From positions 1 through 39,405 of the forward strand of contig JANQHJ010000007.1 of NCBI GenBank assembly GCA_028282745.1: a stretch of DNA of 39,405 nt. The letters run 5' to 3'. A model generated the notes under the pieces. The model saw nothing but the letters and a program-made list of their open reading frames with translations. It was not told where the DNA came from and ran no database searches. How positions within the stretch are numbered: position 1 is the stretch's first letter; each line of letters opens with the position of its first letter. Source of the stretch: Sedimentisphaerales bacterium. Its GTDB lineage: Bacteria > Planctomycetota > Phycisphaerae > Sedimentisphaerales > Anaerobacaceae. A program made the translations under genes and the position numbers. This document shows, one piece after another, positions 5,880-34,119 of the stretch.

Positions 5880-6359
5880 ATGAACTTCTACGAAAACATG
5901 TTTTCACCACACTATCAGTTGAACGAACAAATCGCCAGGCAAGTGTTTGAGGCTTTGCCTGAAGGCAGCCCGCTAATGGTTATAATGGACAGGGAATCGA
6001 ATACCTGGCCAAGTGAATCGCAGGCTTTTGTCGAGTTGGGTATTGGACAGGAATATCTCGATAAGCTTCGCAGTAAAATAGATGACGGCCAGGAGCCGGT
6101 CATTGCACGCTACAACAATAATATGATTGCCTGCTCATCGATCACAACAGATAAAAGCAATGCCGGGTATATTGCGATAATCTGTCCTGAGGATGAGCCG
6201 GAAAAGGCTATGGCGAATATCGACCTTATCGAGATCATACTCAGTCAGATCAATCTTATAGCCAGGCTGATCGAGAAAAATACCCTGCTGTATGAACTAC
6301 AGATGAGGCACCAGCCGGGCTCTATGGGCTATCTGGAGACCGAGGCGGCCTACAACTAA
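5880..6359 (+). CDS. Uncharacterised 159-residue protein, possibly GAF-like
   Basis: I do not recognise this protein. It starts at an ATG preceded by AAGGAT. There is no signal peptide or membrane helix. A mixed alpha/beta stretch includes VIARYNNNMIACSSITT then NAGYIAIICPEDEPEKAM, and ends in a long amphipathic helix (IDLIEIILSQINLIARLIEK). This layout of a strand, a variable loop, a strand and a final helix resembles a divergent GAF-type sensor domain, but the likeness is only structural and weak. The gene follows the STAS/RsbW-like pair after 204 bp and may belong to the same regulatory module. A palindrome lies in front of it. Confidence 0.6.
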   Translation: MNFYENMFSPHYQLNEQIARQVFEALPEGSPLMVIMDRESNTWPSESQAFVELGIGQEYLDKLRSKIDDGQEPVIARYNNNMIACSSITTDKSNAGYIAIICPEDEPEKAMANIDLIEIILSQINLIARLIEKNTLLYELQMRHQPGSMGYLETEAAYN

Positions 6360-6451: not shown

Positions 6452-6490
6452 TCCCGTATCATAGATTGTTTAGATTATGAGGTACAGGAA

Positions 6491-7921
6491 TTGAAATTTC
6501 AGGTTTTCAAAGACGGCTCAACTGCCAAAGAAATGGATCTGGGGGGAACATATCTATTTGGTAGCGACGGCATTCCGCTACGTAGAGGCCAGGTCACATT
6601 TGAAAACGGTATTCTAAACTGCGATAAAGGCAATATCGAGACGGCAGGTATGGCTATTTTATGGCCCGTCAGGGGATATGGCAAAATAATGCTGCCTACG
6701 ACCTGCCTGCCTGAACGTGACAGGCCTTATATATTAAACGTCGAACTCGCACGCGGCAAGCTTATGCAAATCGTCAATAACTGCGAGGAGTGGTCCTTGT
6801 TCGGTAATAATTCGCTTGGGCTCGTTTATAAAGATGCCCGCCAGCTGTTTACCAGGGCATTGCAGAATATATCCGATCCTCCGAAGGCGGCTAAGTTGGC
6901 GGACGACGCTCTTCGCAAAGCCATTAAATTCAGCGATCATTTTACTTTAAAACAAGCCGACCTTATGCTCAAACACCGGGTCAACAATCGAAGCATAAGC
7001 AGAGCGGCGTTGGGTTGTATTGTCGATCCCAAACAGGTCGGCAAGGAAGAATATATTAAAACTATGCAGGAAATTGCCGGCTGTGCCTATGTCCCTGTGA
7101 ACTGGGCTGAAATCGAAAAAAGCAGGGGACAATATGATTTTGCGAAACTCGATAACTGTATCAAAGCTTTGATCCATAAGAGGTTCATGCTGACAGTTGG
7201 TCCGCTGCTACAGTTCGATAAACAGCATATCCCACAATGGTTAATAGGCCAAAAAGCAAGCTTTGAGAAGATACGTGAATGCGCCTACAGGTTTGTTTAT
7301 GAGATGGTAGAGAGATATTCTTCCGTCATAAAGAACTGGGTGGTTGCCGGCGGATTCAACTGTAAGAATTATTTTGGTTTCAATTTCGAACAGATACTCG
7401 AGATGACCCGGGCGGCGTGTATGTCTGCAAAGGATGGTGATGCCAGGGCAAGAAAGATCATCGAGATACATGATCCGTGGGGACAGTACTATGCTACAAC
7501 GCAGGGTACGATCCCGCCTTTGGTTTATATGGATATGGTCATACAAAGCGGTGTGAATTTTGATGTGTTCGCGCTTCAGATGGATTTGAGCTCGACAAAA
7601 AGGGATATGATGCAGGTCTCGTCATTGCTCGATTATATGGCGCCGGTTGCAAAGACATTCTATATAACTTCACTTAACGTTCCAAGGGGCTATGCTAATG
7701 AGCATAGCCAGGAACAGATAAACAGCCAACAGGGCCAGTGGTTGGAGTGTTTGTACAGGATCAGTCTCAGCAAGCCGTTGGTGGATACCGTAATTTATTC
7801 GCTCCTCGCAGATGAGCCTGAAAATGCGGCGGGACACAGCGGGCTAATAACCGAGAAGCTCGAACCAAAGGATGCTTTTCTAAGACTGCGAAAGCTTCGA
7901 AAAATAATATGCACTAAATAG
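6491..7921 (+). CDS. GH10-like TIM-barrel protein lacking both catalytic glutamates
   Basis: The 476-residue protein begins at a TTG served by a GAGG site at 6479-6482; the next ATG, 6533, is a weaker option. There is no signal peptide. Residues 1 to about 160 form a planctomycete-style N-terminal region. From about residue 165 the protein follows the xylanase GH10 fold: FVNNRSIS/AALG entry, NWAEIEKSRGQYDF (GH10 W-x-x-x-E-x-x-x-G-x-Y-x-F pattern), MSAKDGDARARKIIEIHDPW (the GH10 'AR-ADP-A-L-x-x-ND' region) and YMDMVIQSGVNFDVFALQMD. The acid/base site expected as WDVVNE reads WVVAGG (283-288). The nucleophile site expected as ITELD reads ITSLN (392-396). It is therefore likely a non-hydrolytic, perhaps carbohydrate-binding, relative. 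The fold call is good; the function is open. Confidence 0.75.
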   Translation: MKFQVFKDGSTAKEMDLGGTYLFGSDGIPLRRGQVTFENGILNCDKGNIETAGMAILWPVRGYGKIMLPTTCLPERDRPYILNVELARGKLMQIVNNCEEWSLFGNNSLGLVYKDARQLFTRALQNISDPPKAAKLADDALRKAIKFSDHFTLKQADLMLKHRVNNRSISRAALGCIVDPKQVGKEEYIKTMQEIAGCAYVPVNWAEIEKSRGQYDFAKLDNCIKALIHKRFMLTVGPLLQFDKQHIPQWLIGQKASFEKIRECAYRFVYEMVERYSSVIKNWVVAGGFNCKNYFGFNFEQILEMTRAACMSAKDGDARARKIIEIHDPWGQYYATTQGTIPPLVYMDMVIQSGVNFDVFALQMDLSSTKRDMMQVSSLLDYMAPVAKTFYITSLNVPRGYANEHSQEQINSQQGQWLECLYRISLSKPLVDTVIYSLLADEPENAAGHSGLITEKLEPKDAFLRLRKLRKIICTK

Positions 7922-7962: not shown

Positions 7963-8286
7963 ATGGATGCTCAGAAGAACAATATAAACATTTCAGCCTT
8001 TTTTCTGGTAATTGTTTCAGCGTCATTATCTACACTGGTTCTTTCTTACGGTATTTTATCATGCGGCAATGAAGCTCTTAATATCAGCCTTGAAAGCAGG
8101 ATAAACCCGAATGTAGCCGAAGCAGCGAGTATGGTAAGACTGCCGCAAATAGGATTAAGCAGGGCGGCGGCTATTATAGAATACAGAAAAACGGCTCGAT
8201 TCGAATCGTGGCGGGATCTGCAGAATGTAAAAGGCATTGGGCCTAAAATAAGTGAGCGATTAAAAGGCTATCTCAAATTCGATTAG
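7963..8286 (+). CDS. ComEA-like membrane-anchored helix-hairpin-helix protein
   Basis: This 107-residue protein has one N-terminal membrane helix (residues about 11-31, ISAFFLVIVSASLSTLVLSY) and a C-terminal helix-hairpin-helix DNA-binding domain. The latter opens with INPNVAEAASMVRLPQIGLS and continues with AAAIIEYRKTARFESWRDLQ and VKGIGPKISERLKGYL. The paired LPQIG and VKGIG hairpins are diagnostic of ComEA-type domains, which bind DNA outside the membrane during natural transformation. Many planctomycete copies are stand-alone and unlinked to uptake genes, so a role in DNA uptake is only an option here. The SD match (AAGG) is very close to the ATG. The gene lies 41 bp after the GH10-like gene. 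Confidence 0.85.
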   Translation: MDAQKNNINISAFFLVIVSASLSTLVLSYGILSCGNEALNISLESRINPNVAEAASMVRLPQIGLSRAAAIIEYRKTARFESWRDLQNVKGIGPKISERLKGYLKFD

Positions 8287-8300
8287 GATAAGTATAAAAT

Positions 8301-8789
8301 ATGAGTGACTGGGAAATCAAAAAACCATTGGGGCAATGTTCCGGGACCGAGAAAGAGATCGAACCCGGGCAGGAATTTTATGCGGCGCTGGTCGAGACGA
8401 CGGAAGGATTGCAACGACGTGATTTTTGCGCCGAATACTGGGAAGAAAATCAGCCTGAGGTGTTCTGCTATTGGAAGAGCAAACTGCCTGATCCGGATGA
8501 GAAGAAGCAGATATTCGTGAATGATGAAATGCTTATGGCTTTTTTTGAAAGGCTCGAAAAAGAATCCGAGCAGGATAAGATCAATTTCCGATTCGTTATA
8601 ATGCTCGTTCTTATGCGAAAGAGAAAACTCAAATATGACTCGACAAAAACAGAGGATGGTAAAGAATTATGGCGGTTAAGAGTAGTCGGCTCGGATCAGT
8701 ATGTTGAAGTGGTCAATCCGCATCTTAATGAAGAACAGATCGAACAGCTGTCGTCACAGATCGGTGAAATTTTACAGGTAGAATTATGA
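8301..8789 (+). CDS. Conserved-looking hypothetical protein (162 aa) with N-terminal Cys pairs
   Basis: I cannot assign a family. The N-terminal third reads like a zinc-binding or ribbon module: CSGTEKEIEPGQEFYAALVE then RRDFCAEYW and FCYW. The rest is charged and helical, with FRFVIMLVLMRKRKLKYDST and a final acidic helix. There is no signal peptide. A GGATAAG ribosome site precedes the ATG. The stop codon overlaps the start of the downstream lipoprotein gene (ATGA), so translation of the two is coupled. Together with the ComEA-like gene 14 bp upstream they form one transcription unit. A zinc role is only inferred from spacing of Cys and aromatic residues. Confidence 0.7.
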   Translation: MSDWEIKKPLGQCSGTEKEIEPGQEFYAALVETTEGLQRRDFCAEYWEENQPEVFCYWKSKLPDPDEKKQIFVNDEMLMAFFERLEKESEQDKINFRFVIMLVLMRKRKLKYDSTKTEDGKELWRLRVVGSDQYVEVVNPHLNEEQIEQLSSQIGEILQVEL

Positions 8790-9649
8790 CCATGAAACCT
8801 GATTGGCAAAAATATTATTTGTTAGCCCTTTTGATCTCTATGATGTTTCTTATTGGTTGTGAGCCGGCTGATGTAGTTCCACCATTAAGGCGATGTCCCG
8901 GTAAAAGTGCTCCTGCCGAAGCCCTGGCACAACTAAAAACAAACACAGCTGGTATTGTGGAATTCAAGGCTAACGGTAAATGTAAAGCCCAGTATTATGA
9001 TGCCAAAGGAAATGTGAGAAAAGAGCAGTTTAATGTAATGGCGTTCGTTGATCCGCCTGACCAGATACGTTTTTTCGGTGATATTGCATTTAACGCACGA
9101 GGGCTCGATGTCGGCGCCAATACAGATGATTTCTGGTTCGCGGCTAAGCCAAAAGAGCTTGGTAATATCTATATCTGGGGGCAATGGTCACAGCGGCAAA
9201 GAGGGTCCCAGATACTGATGAGCCCGCAGGTACTGCTGGAGGCGTTCGGGCTTATTTTTTCTGAAGCTGATATAAAATGGCAACTGGAAAATAAAGATGA
9301 GTATGACATTTTGACACGGTTGGATGAGCATGGCAAAACCGCCGAAAAGATCCATATATATAACTGTAATTACACTGTGAGCAAGATCGAATATTACGAT
9401 GTCAATCAACAGCCGATCATGTCGGTCGCGATGGCGGATTATCAGGAATTTAATGAAAAAAATATACTGCCTAATGAAATTACTATTGCTCATTATAAAT
9501 CTGACGGTAAGATGGACACCTTTAATATTAAATTGAGTTCGCTCAAGCCTTTACGAAAGAAGAATGCTAAGAGATATGAACGGCCGAAGTCGAAGGGATT
9601 TAAAGAGATTTATAAACTTATTCGCGGCGAGGCAATAAAACAGCAATAA
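8786..9649 (+). CDS. Lipoprotein with LolA/LolB-like features
   Basis: The 287-residue product starts inside the ATGA overlap with the previous gene. Residues about 10-25 form a lipoprotein signal (LLALLISMMFLIGC, lipobox L-I-G-C), followed by EPADVVPP. The mature part is rich in beta-strand. The order is: a repeated 'GIVEFKANGKCKAQYYDAKG' strand pair, FVDPPDQIRFFGDI, a glycine-rich loop, DDFWFAAKPKELGNIYIWG, and PNEITIAHYKSDGKMDTFN near the end. The alternation of 'does the polymer/lipid look right' strands with no catalytic motif resembles the outer-membrane lipoprotein carrier fold (LolA/LolB, DUF4292-like). That likeness is structural inference. The position next to metH-like and waaA genes does not define a role. 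Confidence 0.7.
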   Translation: MTMKPDWQKYYLLALLISMMFLIGCEPADVVPPLRRCPGKSAPAEALAQLKTNTAGIVEFKANGKCKAQYYDAKGNVRKEQFNVMAFVDPPDQIRFFGDIAFNARGLDVGANTDDFWFAAKPKELGNIYIWGQWSQRQRGSQILMSPQVLLEAFGLIFSEADIKWQLENKDEYDILTRLDEHGKTAEKIHIYNCNYTVSKIEYYDVNQQPIMSVAMADYQEFNEKNILPNEITIAHYKSDGKMDTFNIKLSSLKPLRKKNAKRYERPKSKGFKEIYKLIRGEAIKQQ

Positions 9650-12036: not shown

Positions 12037-13656
12037 TTAATTGGCAGTATCAAACCAATAATGTGCTATTAGTGCTATATCGTATAAATTTATTACACCG
12101 TCTCTCACGGCTGGTGCAACATCATATTTATTGTGCCAGTTACTGCTGCTGGCAGTTTCCAGCCAATGACTGATTAATTCGGCAAGATCTAATCCATCGA
12201 CAAAACCATCACCGTCGCCCGGTGCAACATCGACAACCTCAGCATAATTAATTGGTTCGAATTCTAATGCTGGATCATCTTGAGTAAAGAATCCGCCGCC
12301 TCTAAGAACGAGATTGAAATTAATGAACAAATTCATGCCAATTATGCCATCCAGCGTTCCGCCTTCAGGTGAAGCGATATCGAGCCATATAGCTGGGACA
12401 TTTTCGAAACTTAGCCATTGGCCAATAGCAGGGATCTCCAACTTGTCGATGTAATAGCCTGGAGCCATAGTTACTTCACCAGTGACCCCAATAATTTCTA
12501 CTTCAAATTCAGGCTCGCATGGATCGAGCTCTAACATTGCTGCCATTCTACTTCCGATGACAGTGACCTGCGCACCGGTATCGAGCATAAATCGATCCTG
12601 ATCTATAGCTGTTCTTAGCCCGTCATATAAGCTGACACTGTGCACAAAATAGATGCTTTGAGACTGATTGCCGATAATAGTCGAAGGACTGCCCGGGTCA
12701 AAATCAAGATCCAATGTGTCTATTACATAAGCCACATTTGCAGCTCCAAGAGGACGAAGTTCCAGAGGGATCCAGTTTGAATAGCTTGGACAGTTACTAT
12801 CATTGTAATCGTAAAGCCTAATGTCCGGCGAAGTATATTGGTTACTGTCTCTAATAACTGTAACTTGTGTATCATTTTTTATTGAGGTATCAAAGAAAAC
12901 TGATAAAGGGGTCCCGATCGCTGTTATAAGGTCTGGATTATTTTCGAACGGTGCATCACCAACTGCAACAGAAACATTCGTTTCGCCTACCATGTTAGAC
13001 CTGTCCCATACAAGGTCGTTAGGCTCGATAACTCCTAAGCCATCTATGAAAAGGCCAAGTGGCTGACTTACATAAGCATCAACGGTCCCTGTTACGCCGG
13101 ATATGGGGATGAAATTGTCGGTTAAATATTGTTGCTTTGGTAGTCCGCCGGAATCAAATAATCCCATTTGAACAGCGTTATTATAACCTATAACACTGGC
13201 ACTGGCACCGGTATCAAAAATACCAATAGAGTAATTTGCTTCGGGATTGCTGACAGGATAACCTCCAACAACTTCATCTTGTGGATAAGCGAATAAGTCC
13301 AGTTCCGCTGCCCTTTCATTTGTGACCGTCACTACAATCCAGGGTACAAATCCATCAACAGGTGGTGAATATATTGTAAATGCAGTTACAGAATTGTTCT
13401 GTTGAGAATTAGTTGCACTTTCTTCTTCGCTGGGATTTCGTCTAAGTTCAATTGTTTTAGAGCTTAATTTTTGATTCGTGTATTTTACGTTATTACTGCG
13501 AGGCACTGGTTCACCAGGTTGCTCTATGATTCTGCGAATCTTCAGGCTTGCCGGCCCCAGTATATCCACTTTTTCACTATGGCCGAAATTAATTTCAGCT
13601 CCTGCGTGGAAACATAAACCAGCTATTGAAATTAAAATTAGAAAACACTGCCACAT
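12037..13656 (-). CDS. Secreted two-lobed retropepsin/pepsin-like aspartic protein with C-terminal dockerin
   Basis: The ATG at 13656 is preferred because GGGGTGGA lies about nine bases upstream and the hydrophobic signal peptide (MWQCFLILISIAGLCFHAGA) then starts at residue 1; in-frame GTGs at 13683 and 13686 are alternatives. The 539-residue product has two aspartic-protease half-sites: FDTGASASVIG (Asp148) and LDTGAQVTVIG (Asp359). These mark two retropepsin-like lobes in one chain, as in pepsins. Residues 477-539 form a dockerin-like module with two calcium-type loops, PGDGDGFVDGLDLAELI and AVRDGVINLYDIALIAHYW. It is expected outside the cytoplasm, perhaps bound to a cohesin-bearing partner or surface. 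Protease activity is inferred from the two DTG motifs. Confidence 0.85.
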   Translation of the reverse strand: MWQCFLILISIAGLCFHAGAEINFGHSEKVDILGPASLKIRRIIEQPGEPVPRSNNVKYTNQKLSSKTIELRRNPSEEESATNSQQNNSVTAFTIYSPPVDGFVPWIVVTVTNERAAELDLFAYPQDEVVGGYPVSNPEANYSIGIFDTGASASVIGYNNAVQMGLFDSGGLPKQQYLTDNFIPISGVTGTVDAYVSQPLGLFIDGLGVIEPNDLVWDRSNMVGETNVSVAVGDAPFENNPDLITAIGTPLSVFFDTSIKNDTQVTVIRDSNQYTSPDIRLYDYNDSNCPSYSNWIPLELRPLGAANVAYVIDTLDLDFDPGSPSTIIGNQSQSIYFVHSVSLYDGLRTAIDQDRFMLDTGAQVTVIGSRMAAMLELDPCEPEFEVEIIGVTGEVTMAPGYYIDKLEIPAIGQWLSFENVPAIWLDIASPEGGTLDGIIGMNLFINFNLVLRGGGFFTQDDPALEFEPINYAEVVDVAPGDGDGFVDGLDLAELISHWLETASSSNWHNKYDVAPAVRDGVINLYDIALIAHYWFDTAN

Positions 13657-13698
13657 TAACAAATGTCCACCCCGATCATACACCACCCATAATTTATG

Positions 13699-17908: not shown

Positions 17909-19564
17909 ATGAATAGACAAGAGCCAATTTTGCAAATACCTGAAAGTGTTAAAAAGGATACATTAGGGTATCGTGAAAAGGTGAATGAGTTTCTTAAAGG
18001 AAAAACTTCACCGGCGGAATTTCGCGCTTATAGAGTGCCTATGGGTATATATGAGCAGCGAAATGCCGGTAAATATATGGTTCGCATACGGATAGGAGCT
18101 GGCATACTTACTTCTCAACAGGGGCGGAAAATAGCCCGTTTGAGCAAACGATATGGAAACGGTATTATTCATGTTACTACAAGGCAGGATATTCAAATAC
18201 ATGCGGTTGATATCGAGCATACATGCGATATATTAGAGCAGCTTCTTAAAGTCGATTTGAGCACTAGGGGCGGAGGAGGGAATACAGTACGCAACGTCAC
18301 GGCGTGCTCTCGTTGTGGTGTATGTCCCCAAGAAGTATTTAATGTCGGCCCTTATGCGATCGCAACCGCTGAATATCTTCTTCAGAATAAGGACTCTTTC
18401 AATTTGCCGCGAAAATACAAGATAGTTTTTTCAGGATGTAGTGAGGATTGCTCACTTGCCTCAGTTGCTGATCTGGGTTTTTTTGCAAAGAAACGAAATG
18501 GCACAATGGGTTTTTCAGTTTATGCAGCAGGCGGTTTAGGTTCCAGCCCTAATGTGGCAATTCGAATTGAAGATTTTATTGAAGCTAAAGATGTTTTTCT
18601 GGTTGCTGAAACTATAAGAAAACTCTTCGACGAACATGGTGACCGTACGAATCGCAACAGAGCCAGATTACGTTATGTGCTAAAGAGGCTGGGAGAAGGA
18701 GAATTTATCCAGTTATACAAGTCATATAAAGAAAAAGTCATTGAACAGGGACTTTTGGGGCAAATACCAGTCATAAGGGAAATGCCTTTATTTAGCGAGC
18801 AAAAGCGACCTAATGAAGATAGAGTATTACTGAATATTAAATCCGGGATATTAAAAGAAAAACAAGATGGTTTATTTTCAGTCAACCTTAATCTTCAGCT
18901 TGGTGATATACCAGCAGGAGATCTATTAGTTGTTGCAGATATTTCAGAAAAATATGGCAATTCAATTATCAGAACAAGCCAGCTTCAAAATTTGATAATT
19001 ACCTCTGTTCCTGCAGATAATTTAAAAAATGTTGACAATGTTTTGGGCAACTTGAGCATTGATATTAGCGGTAGAGCAAAGAACAATATTGTCCCATGTA
19101 CAGGAGCATCTACTTGTAAACTTGGATTTTGTCTTTCGAGAGGATTGGCTTCTGCGATATCGGACAAGTTAAATGAAAATGGTATCTCAATACATGGTAC
19201 TGTCATAAGAATAAGCGGATGCCCCAACTCATGCGCCCAGCATCATATTGCGGAGATTGGCTTACAGGGCAGAGCAAAGAGAGTTAATGACAGGTTGATG
19301 CCTTGTTATGATATTCTTGCCGGCGGTGCAACTGTAGAGGGCAAGGCAAAATTGGCAGAAAAAATTGCGACAGTACCTGCGAAATCGATCCCTGATGCCT
19401 TAGCGAAGGTTTTCGAAAATAAATCTACTGAGATTCGTCAATTGAAAGAAGTGCTATCAGATTATGAAAATTTTTCGGCCGAGTTTCCAGATGAATATTT
19501 TTATGACTACGGAGCAAAAGAGCCTTTTACATTGCTTACTAAAGGCTCGGTTAAGGGAAAATGA
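17909..19564 (+). CDS. Siroheme-dependent sulfite reductase (ferredoxin-type nitrite/sulfite reductase family)
   Basis: The 551-residue hemoprotein has the two-fold repeated layout of assimilatory sulfite/nitrite reductases. The siroheme-[4Fe-4S] ligands are C397-x5-C403 (CTGASTCKLGF) and C438-x3-C442 (SGCPNSCAQHH). The substrate-binding N-terminal half has IIHVTTRQDIQIHAVD and RNVTACSRCGVCPQEVF. It would reduce sulfite to sulfide with six electrons, probably from ferredoxin, as no flavoprotein partner is encoded. Context favours sulfite over nitrite. The N-half also carries C133-x2-C136-x2-C139 and C177-x3-C181, more cysteines than I expect in this lobe. The stop overlaps the next gene's start by four bases (ATGA). 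Confidence 0.92.
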   Translation: MNRQEPILQIPESVKKDTLGYREKVNEFLKGKTSPAEFRAYRVPMGIYEQRNAGKYMVRIRIGAGILTSQQGRKIARLSKRYGNGIIHVTTRQDIQIHAVDIEHTCDILEQLLKVDLSTRGGGGNTVRNVTACSRCGVCPQEVFNVGPYAIATAEYLLQNKDSFNLPRKYKIVFSGCSEDCSLASVADLGFFAKKRNGTMGFSVYAAGGLGSSPNVAIRIEDFIEAKDVFLVAETIRKLFDEHGDRTNRNRARLRYVLKRLGEGEFIQLYKSYKEKVIEQGLLGQIPVIREMPLFSEQKRPNEDRVLLNIKSGILKEKQDGLFSVNLNLQLGDIPAGDLLVVADISEKYGNSIIRTSQLQNLIITSVPADNLKNVDNVLGNLSIDISGRAKNNIVPCTGASTCKLGFCLSRGLASAISDKLNENGISIHGTVIRISGCPNSCAQHHIAEIGLQGRAKRVNDRLMPCYDILAGGATVEGKAKLAEKIATVPAKSIPDALAKVFENKSTEIRQLKEVLSDYENFSAEFPDEYFYDYGAKEPFTLLTKGSVKGK

Positions 19565-21675
19565 ATCATGTAATTAAAGAAATCTACGCTTATGATGAGA
19601 GTGATACTTCAAGCATTGTTGAAGATATTACTTTTTTGCCTCTTGCGGTTAATGTGAATGGTCTCAAATGTCTTGTTGTCGGCGGCGGCAGAGTTGCTTT
19701 AAGAAAGGTTAAGACTTTATTAAACGCCGGTGCTCTTATAACTATAATTGCTCCAGATGTTCATGAAGAGCTCCAGGATTTAGTTGATAATAATACAATT
19801 ACGTGGCTCTCGAATGAATATCAGCCAAAGCAGATTACTAATTATGATTTCATTATAGCAGCAACTTCTGATAAGGTTCTCAATGTCAGAATCGGCAAAG
19901 ATGCTAAACGATTGAAGAAATTATATTGTATCGTCTCGTCTGGACAGCATTCACAAGTAATCTTTCCTGCGATACATAGCCAGGATGGAATAATGCTTGC
20001 TGTACATTCAAACGGCCTTAATTGCCGTCGTTCTAAGCAGGTGCGTGACGATATCGCCCGCTATTTACAAGGTAAACATCATTTGAATGAAGAGTTTCTT
20101 GTATTCGGTTTTAAGCATTGTGAGCTTCCTGCAGAAATTTCGAGAGGTTTAAATCATTTTGCTCGTAAGGCTGATTTACAGGATTCATTATCTAATACAC
20201 TTATAATTTCTACATGTCAGCGATGGGAATGCTATATTAGCAGCAAGACGCCAAGAAAAGATTTAAGAAAGATATTTTCGTTATTAGAAAGCAAATTAAA
20301 TGCTGAGATAACCCAATATCTACCCAATGCTTACTTTAGGTATGACAACGCAGCATATCATCATCTCCTGAGTATTCTGGTTGGGCTGGATTCACCACTG
20401 ATTGGAGAAACCGAGATAATTTCACAAGTGCGTTCGGCAATGTCTCGATATCTAAGCCAGACGAAAAATCTGCTAACAGGGATATTTGAGAGTACGATAC
20501 TGGCTTCACGTAAGATCAGAAATTCATGCGGACTGGAACCAACCCAGATCAGCTGGGCAGATGTTGTAGTTTCAGCTATTCTCGAAAAAATAAACATCCA
20601 GAAAGCACCAAATGTTCTCATTATTGGAACTGGAAAACTGGCAGAGTCGATCATTAATAAATGTTCCCAGGCAACAATGAAGATAAAGAGCTTATCGGAT
20701 CGTTTAGAAGATACTCTTCTTGATGTGATAGTGATTTGTTCAGAGCTATCCCATGGTGGATTTGATCTGTCCGATTTTAAATGTTCGTCTGGAATGATAA
20801 TATTAGACATGGAAGGTAATAACGATTCCCTGTTTAAAAATAATAACAATATTCGTTACTATAAAGCTAAAGACATTGCGTATAGGCCCATTGACAACAA
20901 TTTAGCTGGGATCATTGCTTCTGCCAGGATCAAAACTATAGAACAATCTTTGGTAAGGTATGGTCTTACGAAAAAACTTTCTATACCCGCGGATGAATTG
21001 AAAATTGGAACAAGAGCAAGTGATCTGGCTATAGCTCAGACGGATGAATTTATGCGAATGCTCAAATCTCTTGCGCCAGAGGTGAGTTGTTCAATTGAAA
21101 CTTTTAATTCGCCCGGCGATCGAGATAAAATTACTCCTCTGCCAAAGGTAAAGGATGATGACTTCTTTACCTGCGACATTGACTCTGCCTTGCTTTCAGG
21201 TAAAATAGATATTGCATTACATAGCGCAAAGGATATGCCGCAAAAGATTCGAAATGAATTGTATGTAGCTGGAGTAACACCAAGTATTGCGAACTGGGAA
21301 TGCCTTGTATCCAAGTCCGGCTTGAAATTGATGGAATTACCTGCGGGCTCTGCTGTGGGTATTTCAAGTGAGCGTAGGCGCAAGCAAATAGAAGAGTTAA
21401 GGCCTGACCTTAAAGCAGTTGATATAAGGGGAAATGTGCCCAATCGAATAGCACAAATGAATAGCGGGAAATATGATGCACTGATCCTGGCAGCGGTTGG
21501 TCTGATCCGACTTGGTATGCAGCAGCATATTACTGAAATATTTAGAGAAAGCGTTTTTCCTTCGACTCAGGGGCAAGGATCCCTCGCTATTGTTATAAGA
21601 GAAGAGGATGAGCAATTACGCAGATTCTTAAAGCCGTTGGATCTGGGGAATAAGGAGGGGCTTCCATGGCGATAG
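19561..21675 (+). CDS. hemA: SirC-HemA-HemC triple fusion: precorrin-2 dehydrogenase, glutamyl-tRNA reductase, truncated hydroxymethylbilane synthase
   Basis: Residues 25-175 are a SirC/CysG-N precorrin-2 dehydrogenase (LVVGGGRVALRKVKTLLNAG; ATSD with Asp104 at the expected catalytic site). Residues 178-470 are glutamyl-tRNA reductase: LIISTCQRWECY with catalytic Cys219, LIGETEIISQVRSA, and the NADPH site VLIIGTGKL. Only a short piece of the C-terminal dimer helix remains. Residues 478-695 are hydroxymethylbilane synthase: KIGTRASDLAIAQT, IDIALHSAKDMP with catalytic Asp558, ISSERRRKQI, and STQGQGSLAI. The chain ends where domain 3 of HemC should start, so the cysteine that carries the dipyrromethane cofactor (Cys242 in E. 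coli) is missing. The 704-residue protein overlaps both neighbours. It covers the first, fourth and last steps around sirohydrochlorin synthesis. Confidence 0.92.
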   Translation: MNHVIKEIYAYDESDTSSIVEDITFLPLAVNVNGLKCLVVGGGRVALRKVKTLLNAGALITIIAPDVHEELQDLVDNNTITWLSNEYQPKQITNYDFIIAATSDKVLNVRIGKDAKRLKKLYCIVSSGQHSQVIFPAIHSQDGIMLAVHSNGLNCRRSKQVRDDIARYLQGKHHLNEEFLVFGFKHCELPAEISRGLNHFARKADLQDSLSNTLIISTCQRWECYISSKTPRKDLRKIFSLLESKLNAEITQYLPNAYFRYDNAAYHHLLSILVGLDSPLIGETEIISQVRSAMSRYLSQTKNLLTGIFESTILASRKIRNSCGLEPTQISWADVVVSAILEKINIQKAPNVLIIGTGKLAESIINKCSQATMKIKSLSDRLEDTLLDVIVICSELSHGGFDLSDFKCSSGMIILDMEGNNDSLFKNNNNIRYYKAKDIAYRPIDNNLAGIIASARIKTIEQSLVRYGLTKKLSIPADELKIGTRASDLAIAQTDEFMRMLKSLAPEVSCSIETFNSPGDRDKITPLPKVKDDDFFTCDIDSALLSGKIDIALHSAKDMPQKIRNELYVAGVTPSIANWECLVSKSGLKLMELPAGSAVGISSERRRKQIEELRPDLKAVDIRGNVPNRIAQMNSGKYDALILAAVGLIRLGMQQHITEIFRESVFPSTQGQGSLAIVIREEDEQLRRFLKPLDLGNKEGLPWR

Positions 21676-33159: not shown

Positions 33160-34119
33160 ATGGCTGTTTTAGCAGGGATAGATGAAGCCGGCTATGGCCC
33201 GTTAATGGGGCCGCTGGTTATATCCGCTTCTGCCTTTACACTGCCTGATGAACTGTTGAAAGAAGACCTCTACCAGATACTAAAAAAAAGCATTGCTAAC
33301 CGGCGCAAACACCTGGCGGGGCGGTTGCTGATTTCAGATAGTAAAAAAGCATACTCCAAATCTATCGGCATTAAACATCTCGAAAGAACGACGCTAACAG
33401 CCCTTAAGTGTCTAAATCAAACCCCTGAAAGTCTTTCCGGGCTGCTTGATTTTCTGTGCCCCGACTCTCTGGCAAGGCTTAAAGGTTATAATTGGTACGA
33501 AAACTGTGACGGTCTTGACAGAATTTGTAATGATGCTGACATCAGAATAGCCTGCAAAGTCTTTAAAGAAGACATGGGCAAAAATAATATTGCCTTGCAG
33601 GGCTTGCAAACTCACTGTCTCGATGTGGCTCATTATAACAAGCTTGTCACTAACACGAACAACAAGGCGGCTGTTCTTTTTTCAAGCACCTGCTCACTTA
33701 TAAAATCTATCTGGGATAACAGCCACGACCCTAATATCCAGATAATCATCGACCGACAGGGCGGCAGAACCCATTATCGAAAGCATCTGCTCAGGATGTT
33801 CGGCTATCTGGAATTAGCTGTTTTAAAAGAAAGCAATGACAACAGCAGCTATGAACTAACCGGGCGAAACAAGAAAATGAGGCTTCACTTCGTGACCAAA
33901 GCGGATAAAAAATATATGCCGGTCAGTCTTTCATCAATGCTAAGTAAATACATACGAGAAATACTTATACACAAGATAAACGCCTATTTTCTAAAGCACC
34001 ATCAGGCCCTAAAACCAACGGCAGGCTACTGGAAAGACGGCCTACGTTTTATTTCTGATTTGAAAGAACACATCCCTCATGTGAAATACGATGAGAATAG
34101 GCTGATAAGGTGTCGTTAA
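33160..34119 (+). CDS. Divergent RNase HII-like protein
   Basis: The 319-residue protein opens with AGIDEAGYGPLMGPLVISAS, which parallels the RNase HII start GxDEAGRGPLxGPVV including the two metal-binding acids. Later RNase HII landmarks are LISDSKKAY (parallels DSKxLS), IIIDRQGGRTHYRKHL (strand with third Asp) and TKADKKYMPVSLSSMLSKYI, which parallels KGDxKxxxIAAASxxAKV. RNase HII proteins are usually about 200-220 residues; this one has an inserted segment of roughly 100 residues in the middle (around KGYNWYENCDGLDRICNDAD). The Arg of DEAGRG, important for ribonucleotide recognition, is Tyr here. It may act on a different nucleic-acid junction or be a planctomycete-specific relative. It has its own promoter. 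Confidence 0.75.
   Translation: MAVLAGIDEAGYGPLMGPLVISASAFTLPDELLKEDLYQILKKSIANRRKHLAGRLLISDSKKAYSKSIGIKHLERTTLTALKCLNQTPESLSGLLDFLCPDSLARLKGYNWYENCDGLDRICNDADIRIACKVFKEDMGKNNIALQGLQTHCLDVAHYNKLVTNTNNKAAVLFSSTCSLIKSIWDNSHDPNIQIIIDRQGGRTHYRKHLLRMFGYLELAVLKESNDNSSYELTGRNKKMRLHFVTKADKKYMPVSLSSMLSKYIREILIHKINAYFLKHHQALKPTAGYWKDGLRFISDLKEHIPHVKYDENRLIRCR

Follow-up and report, generated by a model that had tools for sequence, protein, structure and literature searches.

The window, the 39,405-nucleotide stretch of contig JANQHJ010000007.1 of a Sedimentisphaerales bacterium, contains a gene for a protein with the fold of a family 10 glycoside hydrolase (GH10) xylanase in which both catalytic glutamates are replaced, and we put at roughly 0.55 the probability that this pseudo-GH10 protein is non-hydrolytic and is also coupled in function to a ComEA-like protein encoded directly downstream. 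Taken separately, the absence of GH10 hydrolysis is very likely on the evidence of the aligned residues, and coupling to the ComEA-like protein is the likelier state of affairs. A catalytically dead xylanase fold would then be encoded by a gene close to universal in an entire bacterial class, which we infer to be the Phycisphaerae, the class that includes Sedimentisphaerales; the protein is probably retained for a non-cutting job inside the cell, and, if its pairing with the ComEA-like gene is functional, the pair offers a tangible starting point for the study of DNA uptake, or of some other membrane process, in Planctomycetota. The features on which the argument rests are as follows.

6491-7921, + strand: pseudo-GH10 protein, an open reading frame of 476 aa with a TTG start; Pfam GH10 match at E 3.9e-5, AlphaFold (AF2) model at pLDDT 92.7, GH10 fold at Z 32.0
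6491-6985, + strand: family-specific N-terminal domain, residues 1-165, made of a small beta domain (1-80) and helices (82-165); AF2 model of residues 1-168 alone at pLDDT 93.5
6986-7915, + strand: (beta/alpha)8 barrel of GH10 type, residues 166-475, placed by the AF2 strands and a VIA-align range of 159-476
7352-7354, + strand: codon of Gly288, at the GH10 acid/base Glu position in the profile alignment to PDB 3niy
7670-7672, + strand: codon of Ser394, at the GH10 nucleophile Glu position in the same alignment
7963-8286, + strand: ComEA-like protein of 107 aa with an N-terminal hydrophobic segment (hydropathy peak 2.25) and a helix-hairpin-helix domain (PF12836, E 4.9e-14)

The TTG start of the pseudo-GH10 gene is preceded, 8 nt upstream, by GAGG at 6479-6482, and its start residue is common to most of the extracted relatives, where the codon is GTG, ATG or TTG. 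A sequence-only reading that recognized a GH10 likeness had quoted the motifs NWAEIEKSRGQYDF (from residue 204), WVVAGG (283-288), LQMD (362-365) and ITSLN (392-396); these are present, and Pfam, profile and predicted-structure matches agree with the assignment. The PF00331 match of the single window protein (23.5 bits) lies a little above the cut-off of 22.1; a Pfam scan at E 1 returned GH10 and GH42 matches only, with no anti-sigma domain found, and the sole NCBIfam match, to GH35, scored 19 bits, far below its cut-off of 500. Structure prediction, which the same reading had proposed as a check, gave a confident model (pTM 0.91) in which a beta domain (residues 1-80) and long helices (82-165) are followed by a barrel with all eight strands (at 174-177, 198-202, 233-237, 282-287, 321-327, 359-363, 389-395 and 431-436). 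In VIA-align its best PDB match was the GH10 xylanase 8b73, Acetivibrio AcXyn10A (rmsd 2.7 over 300 residues, 19% identity), and nearly all matches listed were titled xylanase or GH10; Foldseek gave a best E of 1.2e-15, and the best 50 matches listed were xylanases or Kemp eliminases. The family profile matched GH10 xylanases in the PDB, 8b73 at E 3.2e-25, and PF00331 was found at E 0.01 or better in 70 of 73 aligned sequences scanned singly, two of the 73 being a catalytic outgroup. The model, the PDB profile search and the Pfam count share one 73-row alignment (A2), whose two catalytic outgroup sequences (L099 and L100) may inflate the resemblance to GH10; the Pfam match of the window protein itself is independent of them. 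Because so many single sequences match Pfam GH10, totals of GH10 proteins in the class may, for many genomes, count in one that is non-hydrolytic.

What sets the family apart from GH10 xylanases, besides the residues discussed below and the lack of any visible signal peptide, is its N-terminal domain. The sequence-only reading had described about 160 N-terminal residues of unknown type, and the description holds for the 165 residues delimited here: they had no clear match in the PDB (Foldseek best E 0.74), and the best VIA-align score, Z 9.2 over residues 81-168, is in the range of common helical arrangements. Four of its residues (T70, L82, E85 and R88) occur in 94/94 class sequences. A profile of the domain matched 24 of 199 phylum-sample genomes (13 in the class, 11 outside it) in the same places as the barrel; thus, the domain marks the pseudo-GH10 family. 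The open reading frame reaches 844 aa at one locus (L107) and 815 aa at another (L129), and in family f10 (L092-L095) the profile matches in two pieces of proteins of about 548 aa, which suggests an insertion between the domains or an overlong frame.

The protein is probably cytosolic. No hydrophobic segment was present in the first 45 residues of any of the 94 class sequences, in agreement with the earlier statement that a signal peptide is lacking, and none was seen at the modelled start; the starts of these 94 proteins were picked near the profile start, so that a start further upstream would be missed. The maximum 17-residue hydropathy of the window protein is 1.24, and a hydrophobic stretch of at least 1.6 occurs anywhere in the chain in 6/94 class proteins. 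Between 4000 and 11000 no Rfam match exceeded its gathering score; promoter-like sites (26 against 16.5 expected) and terminator-like sites (5 against 5.9 expected) were not used as evidence.

The case against GH10 hydrolysis rests on an alignment of 107 rows, 6 of 113 extracted sequences having been excluded at <100 bits (L101-L104 and two from L144); subtraction of 11 outside-class rows and 2 catalytic rows leaves the 94 class rows, of which 61 come from one order with no down-weighting. Catalytic columns were set by profile alignment to PDB 3niy, which pairs the acid/base Glu (VVNEA) with the g of VVsgl and the nucleophile Glu (ITE) with the variable residue that follows IT. GH10 enzymes carry the acid/base Glu at the end of strand 4 (W-x-x-x-N-E) and the nucleophile Glu at the end of strand 7 (I-T-E); the window protein has Gly288 and Ser394 in these places. 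The claim of the sequence-only reading that both glutamates are replaced is borne out by this alignment; there is, moreover, no D or E among residues 284-293 or 392-398 and hence no other acid at those strand ends in the window protein. The search for the same substitutions across the class, also proposed there, found the acid/base Glu in 0/94 sequences (Gly 84, Ser 7, Ala 2, Asn 1) and the nucleophile Glu in 7/94 (L007, L012, L015, L020, L026, L029 and L037), the remainder of the latter column being Ala 22, Gly 15, Ser 13, Asp 13, Asn 9 and 15 others (5 gaps). In the 11 outside-class relatives the acid/base Glu was found in 0/11, and the nucleophile column was a gap with no D or E in the surrounding segment; the distant relatives L099 and L100 both keep the acid/base Glu, and L099 keeps the nucleophile as well.

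The subsite residues have fared little better. In Cex numbering, the -1 subsite residues H80, W84, N126 and H205 correspond in the window protein to Pro238, Phe242, Gly287 and Asp365. Across the class the H80 column is Pro in 85/94 sequences and the W84 column Phe in 84/94, never His or Trp there; the N126 column, the Asn of the N-E pair, is Asn in 1/94 and the H205 column His in 5/94, while the equivalent of Gln203 is retained in 51/94. GH10 hydrolysis is unlikely because both glutamates and most subsite residues are lost; some class members have Glu (7 of 94) or Asp (13 of 94) at the nucleophile column, so that an acid is not wholly absent there. On these alignments the loss of the catalytic glutamates is old and family-wide, not specific to the window genome. 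Loss from a catalytic GH10 enzyme is the presumed direction of change, no more than presumed because a very long branch (3.76) leads to the catalytic pair in the tree.

Among near relatives the pseudo-GH10 protein occurs in 91/99 genomes, including 50/50 good ones, with a single match in 89 of the 91; in the class sample it occurs in 193/198 genomes and in 153/155 good ones, two of the 193 matches being weak (G222 at 5.0e-8 and G249 at 2.9e-12) and possibly other GH10 proteins or fragments. In the phylum sample 32/199 genomes match, 13 of them in the class and 19 elsewhere; of the 19, one family supplies 9 and two further families that have the N-terminal domain supply 2, the other 8 being weak or general matches to GH10. 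The pseudo-GH10 tree, computed by a quick method with a midpoint root, broadly follows taxonomy, with SH-aLRT support of 99 for the class rows, 96 for the order and 97 for the outside group, and with most families, f4 excepted, held together. An oddity of one genome or a decaying gene is ruled out by the near-relative and class counts together with the tree.

The neighbourhood of the gene was compared in 63 loci with flanks, 56 in the class and 7 outside it, and the small same-strand gene downstream is the sole neighbour conserved class-wide; other real neighbour clusters are confined to the order or occur in at most 12/63 loci. This ComEA-like partner lies directly downstream on the same strand at 43/56 class loci (42 by BLAST clustering and L105 by profile) and at 0/7 outside, and in six loci (L107, L111, L112, L125, L128 and L133) the longest frames of the two genes overlap by 4 nt. 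In the window the partner has an HHH_3 domain (PF12836, 52.6 bits against a cut-off of 27), and a hydrophobic segment is present in 42/42 clustered partners. It resembles ComEA in both of these features and differs in scoring below both NCBIfam cut-offs (TIGR01259, 44.9 against 152.35 bits; TIGR00426, 36.9 against 53.1 bits), and in the window genome ComEC is on another contig than the pair. Of the 7 HHH_3 matches in that genome, the partner ranks first (53.1 bits) and is alone in lying in a short frame (110 aa).

A partner profile, which was built from adjacent partners and is biased toward them as best matches, found a match in 192/198 class genomes; its best match was directly downstream on the same strand in 123/136 genomes that had both genes placed among the matches listed, four of these places coming from the phylum-sample search, with 9-348 nt between match ends, and elsewhere in 13/136, some of these perhaps at contig ends. 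In 18 more genomes a barrel place is listed and no partner place is among the matches listed, weaker partners being those left off. The 11 outside-class genomes with the pseudo-GH10 protein all have ComEA-like matches, none beside the barrel, so that the barrel can exist unlinked from the ComEA-like gene. Five genomes (G123, G134, G169, G237 and G264) are without both genes and G233 without the partner only; the joint absence is not independent evidence, because neighbours drop out together from incomplete assemblies. Thus, in the class the pseudo-GH10 gene is mostly found in a conserved two-gene unit with the ComEA-like gene. An antisense cluster over the pseudo-GH10 gene (53 loci) and the L132|5779 cluster were dropped because by position they are shadow frames of that same gene.

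We suggest that the two catalytic glutamates of a GH10 barrel disappeared before the class radiated or early in that process, and that the resulting pseudo-glycosidase is an ancient, mostly vertically inherited protein retained in nearly all class members. It would stay in the cytosol and work alongside the ComEA-like protein as a subunit for binding or assembly; their shared job may be DNA uptake at the inner membrane, with a ComEA-like receptor outside and the pseudo-GH10 partner inside. DNA uptake is the leading guess because of the pairing with the ComEA-like gene, the presence of ComEC in the window genome and the rank of the partner as best HHH_3 match; it is the most economical reading of the pair, and we give it well below even odds. 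ComEC itself was uninformative as a discriminating test, being present in 189/198 class genomes. A more specific and slightly more speculative version would build a class-specific DNA-uptake apparatus around the unit formed by the cytosolic pseudo-GH10 protein and the membrane ComEA-like protein, with the dead barrel as a core subunit that works on the inner side as an adaptor or as a ligand-binding switch for incoming DNA. In the predicted topology the HHH domain lies outside the membrane and the barrel inside, and this placement makes contact through the HHH domain unlikely. Both domains of the pseudo-GH10 protein are conserved (mean entropies 1.86 and 1.91 bits), with no clear excess at the active-site face, a pattern no less compatible with assembly or interaction than with ligand binding.

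Ligand binding is central to the proposal of the sequence-only reading, a cytosolic sugar or oligosaccharide sensor in which the dead barrel would bind a glycan and signal on, possibly to RsbW/STAS partner-switching proteins. GH10 barrels do bind xylo-oligosaccharides, as PDB titles attest, and aromatic residues after strand 5 are conserved (W330 in 83/94 and Y333 in 93/94 class sequences); most GH10 subsite residues are nevertheless lost, with the Gln203 equivalent kept in little more than half of the class, and high conservation is not clearly commoner at positions just past the strands, on the active-site face, than at positions ahead of them (12/48 against 4/48 highly conserved, Fisher p 0.053; 13/64 against 7/64, p 0.22, with mean entropies alike). 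The closest precedent is RsgI6 of Clostridium thermocellum, described in the part of the source covered (PMC4711584) as a membrane anti-sigma factor whose extracellular GH10 module has very low catalytic activity and serves as a polysaccharide-binding sensor. That is the nearest known use of a weakly catalytic GH10 module for another purpose that we found; RsgI6, as described in that part of the source, carries its module outside the cell on a membrane protein, whereas the pseudo-GH10 protein looks cytosolic, stands alone, has no anti-sigma domain by Pfam and, at a maximum hydropathy of 1.24, lacks the transmembrane segment of RsgI-type proteins. The link that the sequence-only reading drew to a nearby RsbW-like cluster does not hold as functional context: STAS and HATPase genes lie upstream in only 8/63 loci, all within the order, and the conserved neighbour is the ComEA-like gene, which that reading passed over. 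We consider a sensor of this kind unlikely. The barrel might alternatively house a different active site for another reaction, built from residues such as Glu332, Asp372 and Asp441, and the whole protein has been conserved over the long term, with Asp372 in 94/94, Asp441 in 92/94 and Glu332 in 84/94 class sequences. Glu332 and Asp372 could form such a site, but the window protein itself has Gln at position 332; moreover, Asp372 lies nine residues past strand 6, where it may cap a helix, and no conserved pair occupies the two lost positions. We consider a new enzyme unlikely.

Pseudoenzymes often act on active relatives, and strong matches to GH10 also occur in many genomes of the order, as would suit a regulator, chaperone or decoy of active xylanases in the same cell. 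The window genome (94% complete), however, has a single PF00331 match, a weak one at E 2.4e-4, and the pseudo-GH10 protein seems to be its only GH10 match, so that regulation of an active xylanase is unlikely there; 50/148 order genomes, some of them incomplete assemblies, likewise have just one match, weaker than 1e-20 and taken as the pseudo-GH10 protein. We consider a role of this kind highly improbable. It might also be that adjacency to the ComEA-like gene has no functional meaning and that the barrel protein serves some housekeeping purpose of another sort. In the outside-class relatives the barrel is present and has no adjacent partner, and an old purine-gene neighbourhood exists too: a SAICAR synthase gene is divergent near the barrel inside and outside the class (a cluster of 12 loci, 8 within 500 bp, some frames overlong; identified by Pfam at L118:4748-5683, L135:4431-5318 and L141:7821-8681), and its persistence supports common descent of the class and outside-class groups. 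Against mere adjacency, the pair persists among the matches listed at the frequency given above while the surrounding genes change, with overlapping frames in several loci; we regard a housekeeping role unconnected with the partner as rather doubtful, and prefer the coupling of a non-hydrolytic barrel to the ComEA-like protein.

Glycosidase folds that have lost catalysis are already known as a kind. Chitinase-like lectins and heparanase 2 are examples in the parts of the sources covered, and they belong to other glycoside hydrolase families than the pseudo-GH10 protein, the lectins to GH18. The heparanase family is GH79, and we know of no link of either to a ComEA-like protein. In the literature searched, which covered few subscription papers, we found no report of the pseudo-GH10 family or its role and nothing relevant on competence in Planctomycetes; a survey of Planctomycetota CAZymes leaves the family unmentioned in the parts covered (PMC11131199). 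That literature yielded no class-wide, cytosolic, dead GH10 protein that has an N-terminal domain of its own and is paired with a ComEA-like partner; we take the family to be a new one among pseudo-glycosidases.

Several neighbours are specific to the order, namely the STAS and HATPase genes (8 loci each of the 63), a 159-aa gene (11) and a 162-aa gene (19). In the window the 159-aa protein (5880-6359, + strand) has no Pfam or NCBIfam match and lies upstream of the pseudo-GH10 gene, and the 162-aa protein (8301-8789, + strand) accompanies the pseudo-GH10/ComEA-like pair. A gene at 8786-9649 (+ strand), with a DUF4292 match just under the cut-off, is beside the pair in 16/63 loci, again in the order only. 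Elsewhere in the window, a retropepsin-like aspartyl protease with a C-terminal dockerin type I match is encoded at 12037-13686 (- strand), and for a 319-aa open reading frame at 33160-34119 (+ strand) a Pfam scan at E 0.001 gives a single match, to the opening 27 positions of RNase HII. A single open reading frame at 19561-21675 (+ strand) combines an NAD-binding domain, a glutamyl-tRNA reductase N-terminal domain and porphobilinogen deaminase, and more tetrapyrrole genes follow it.
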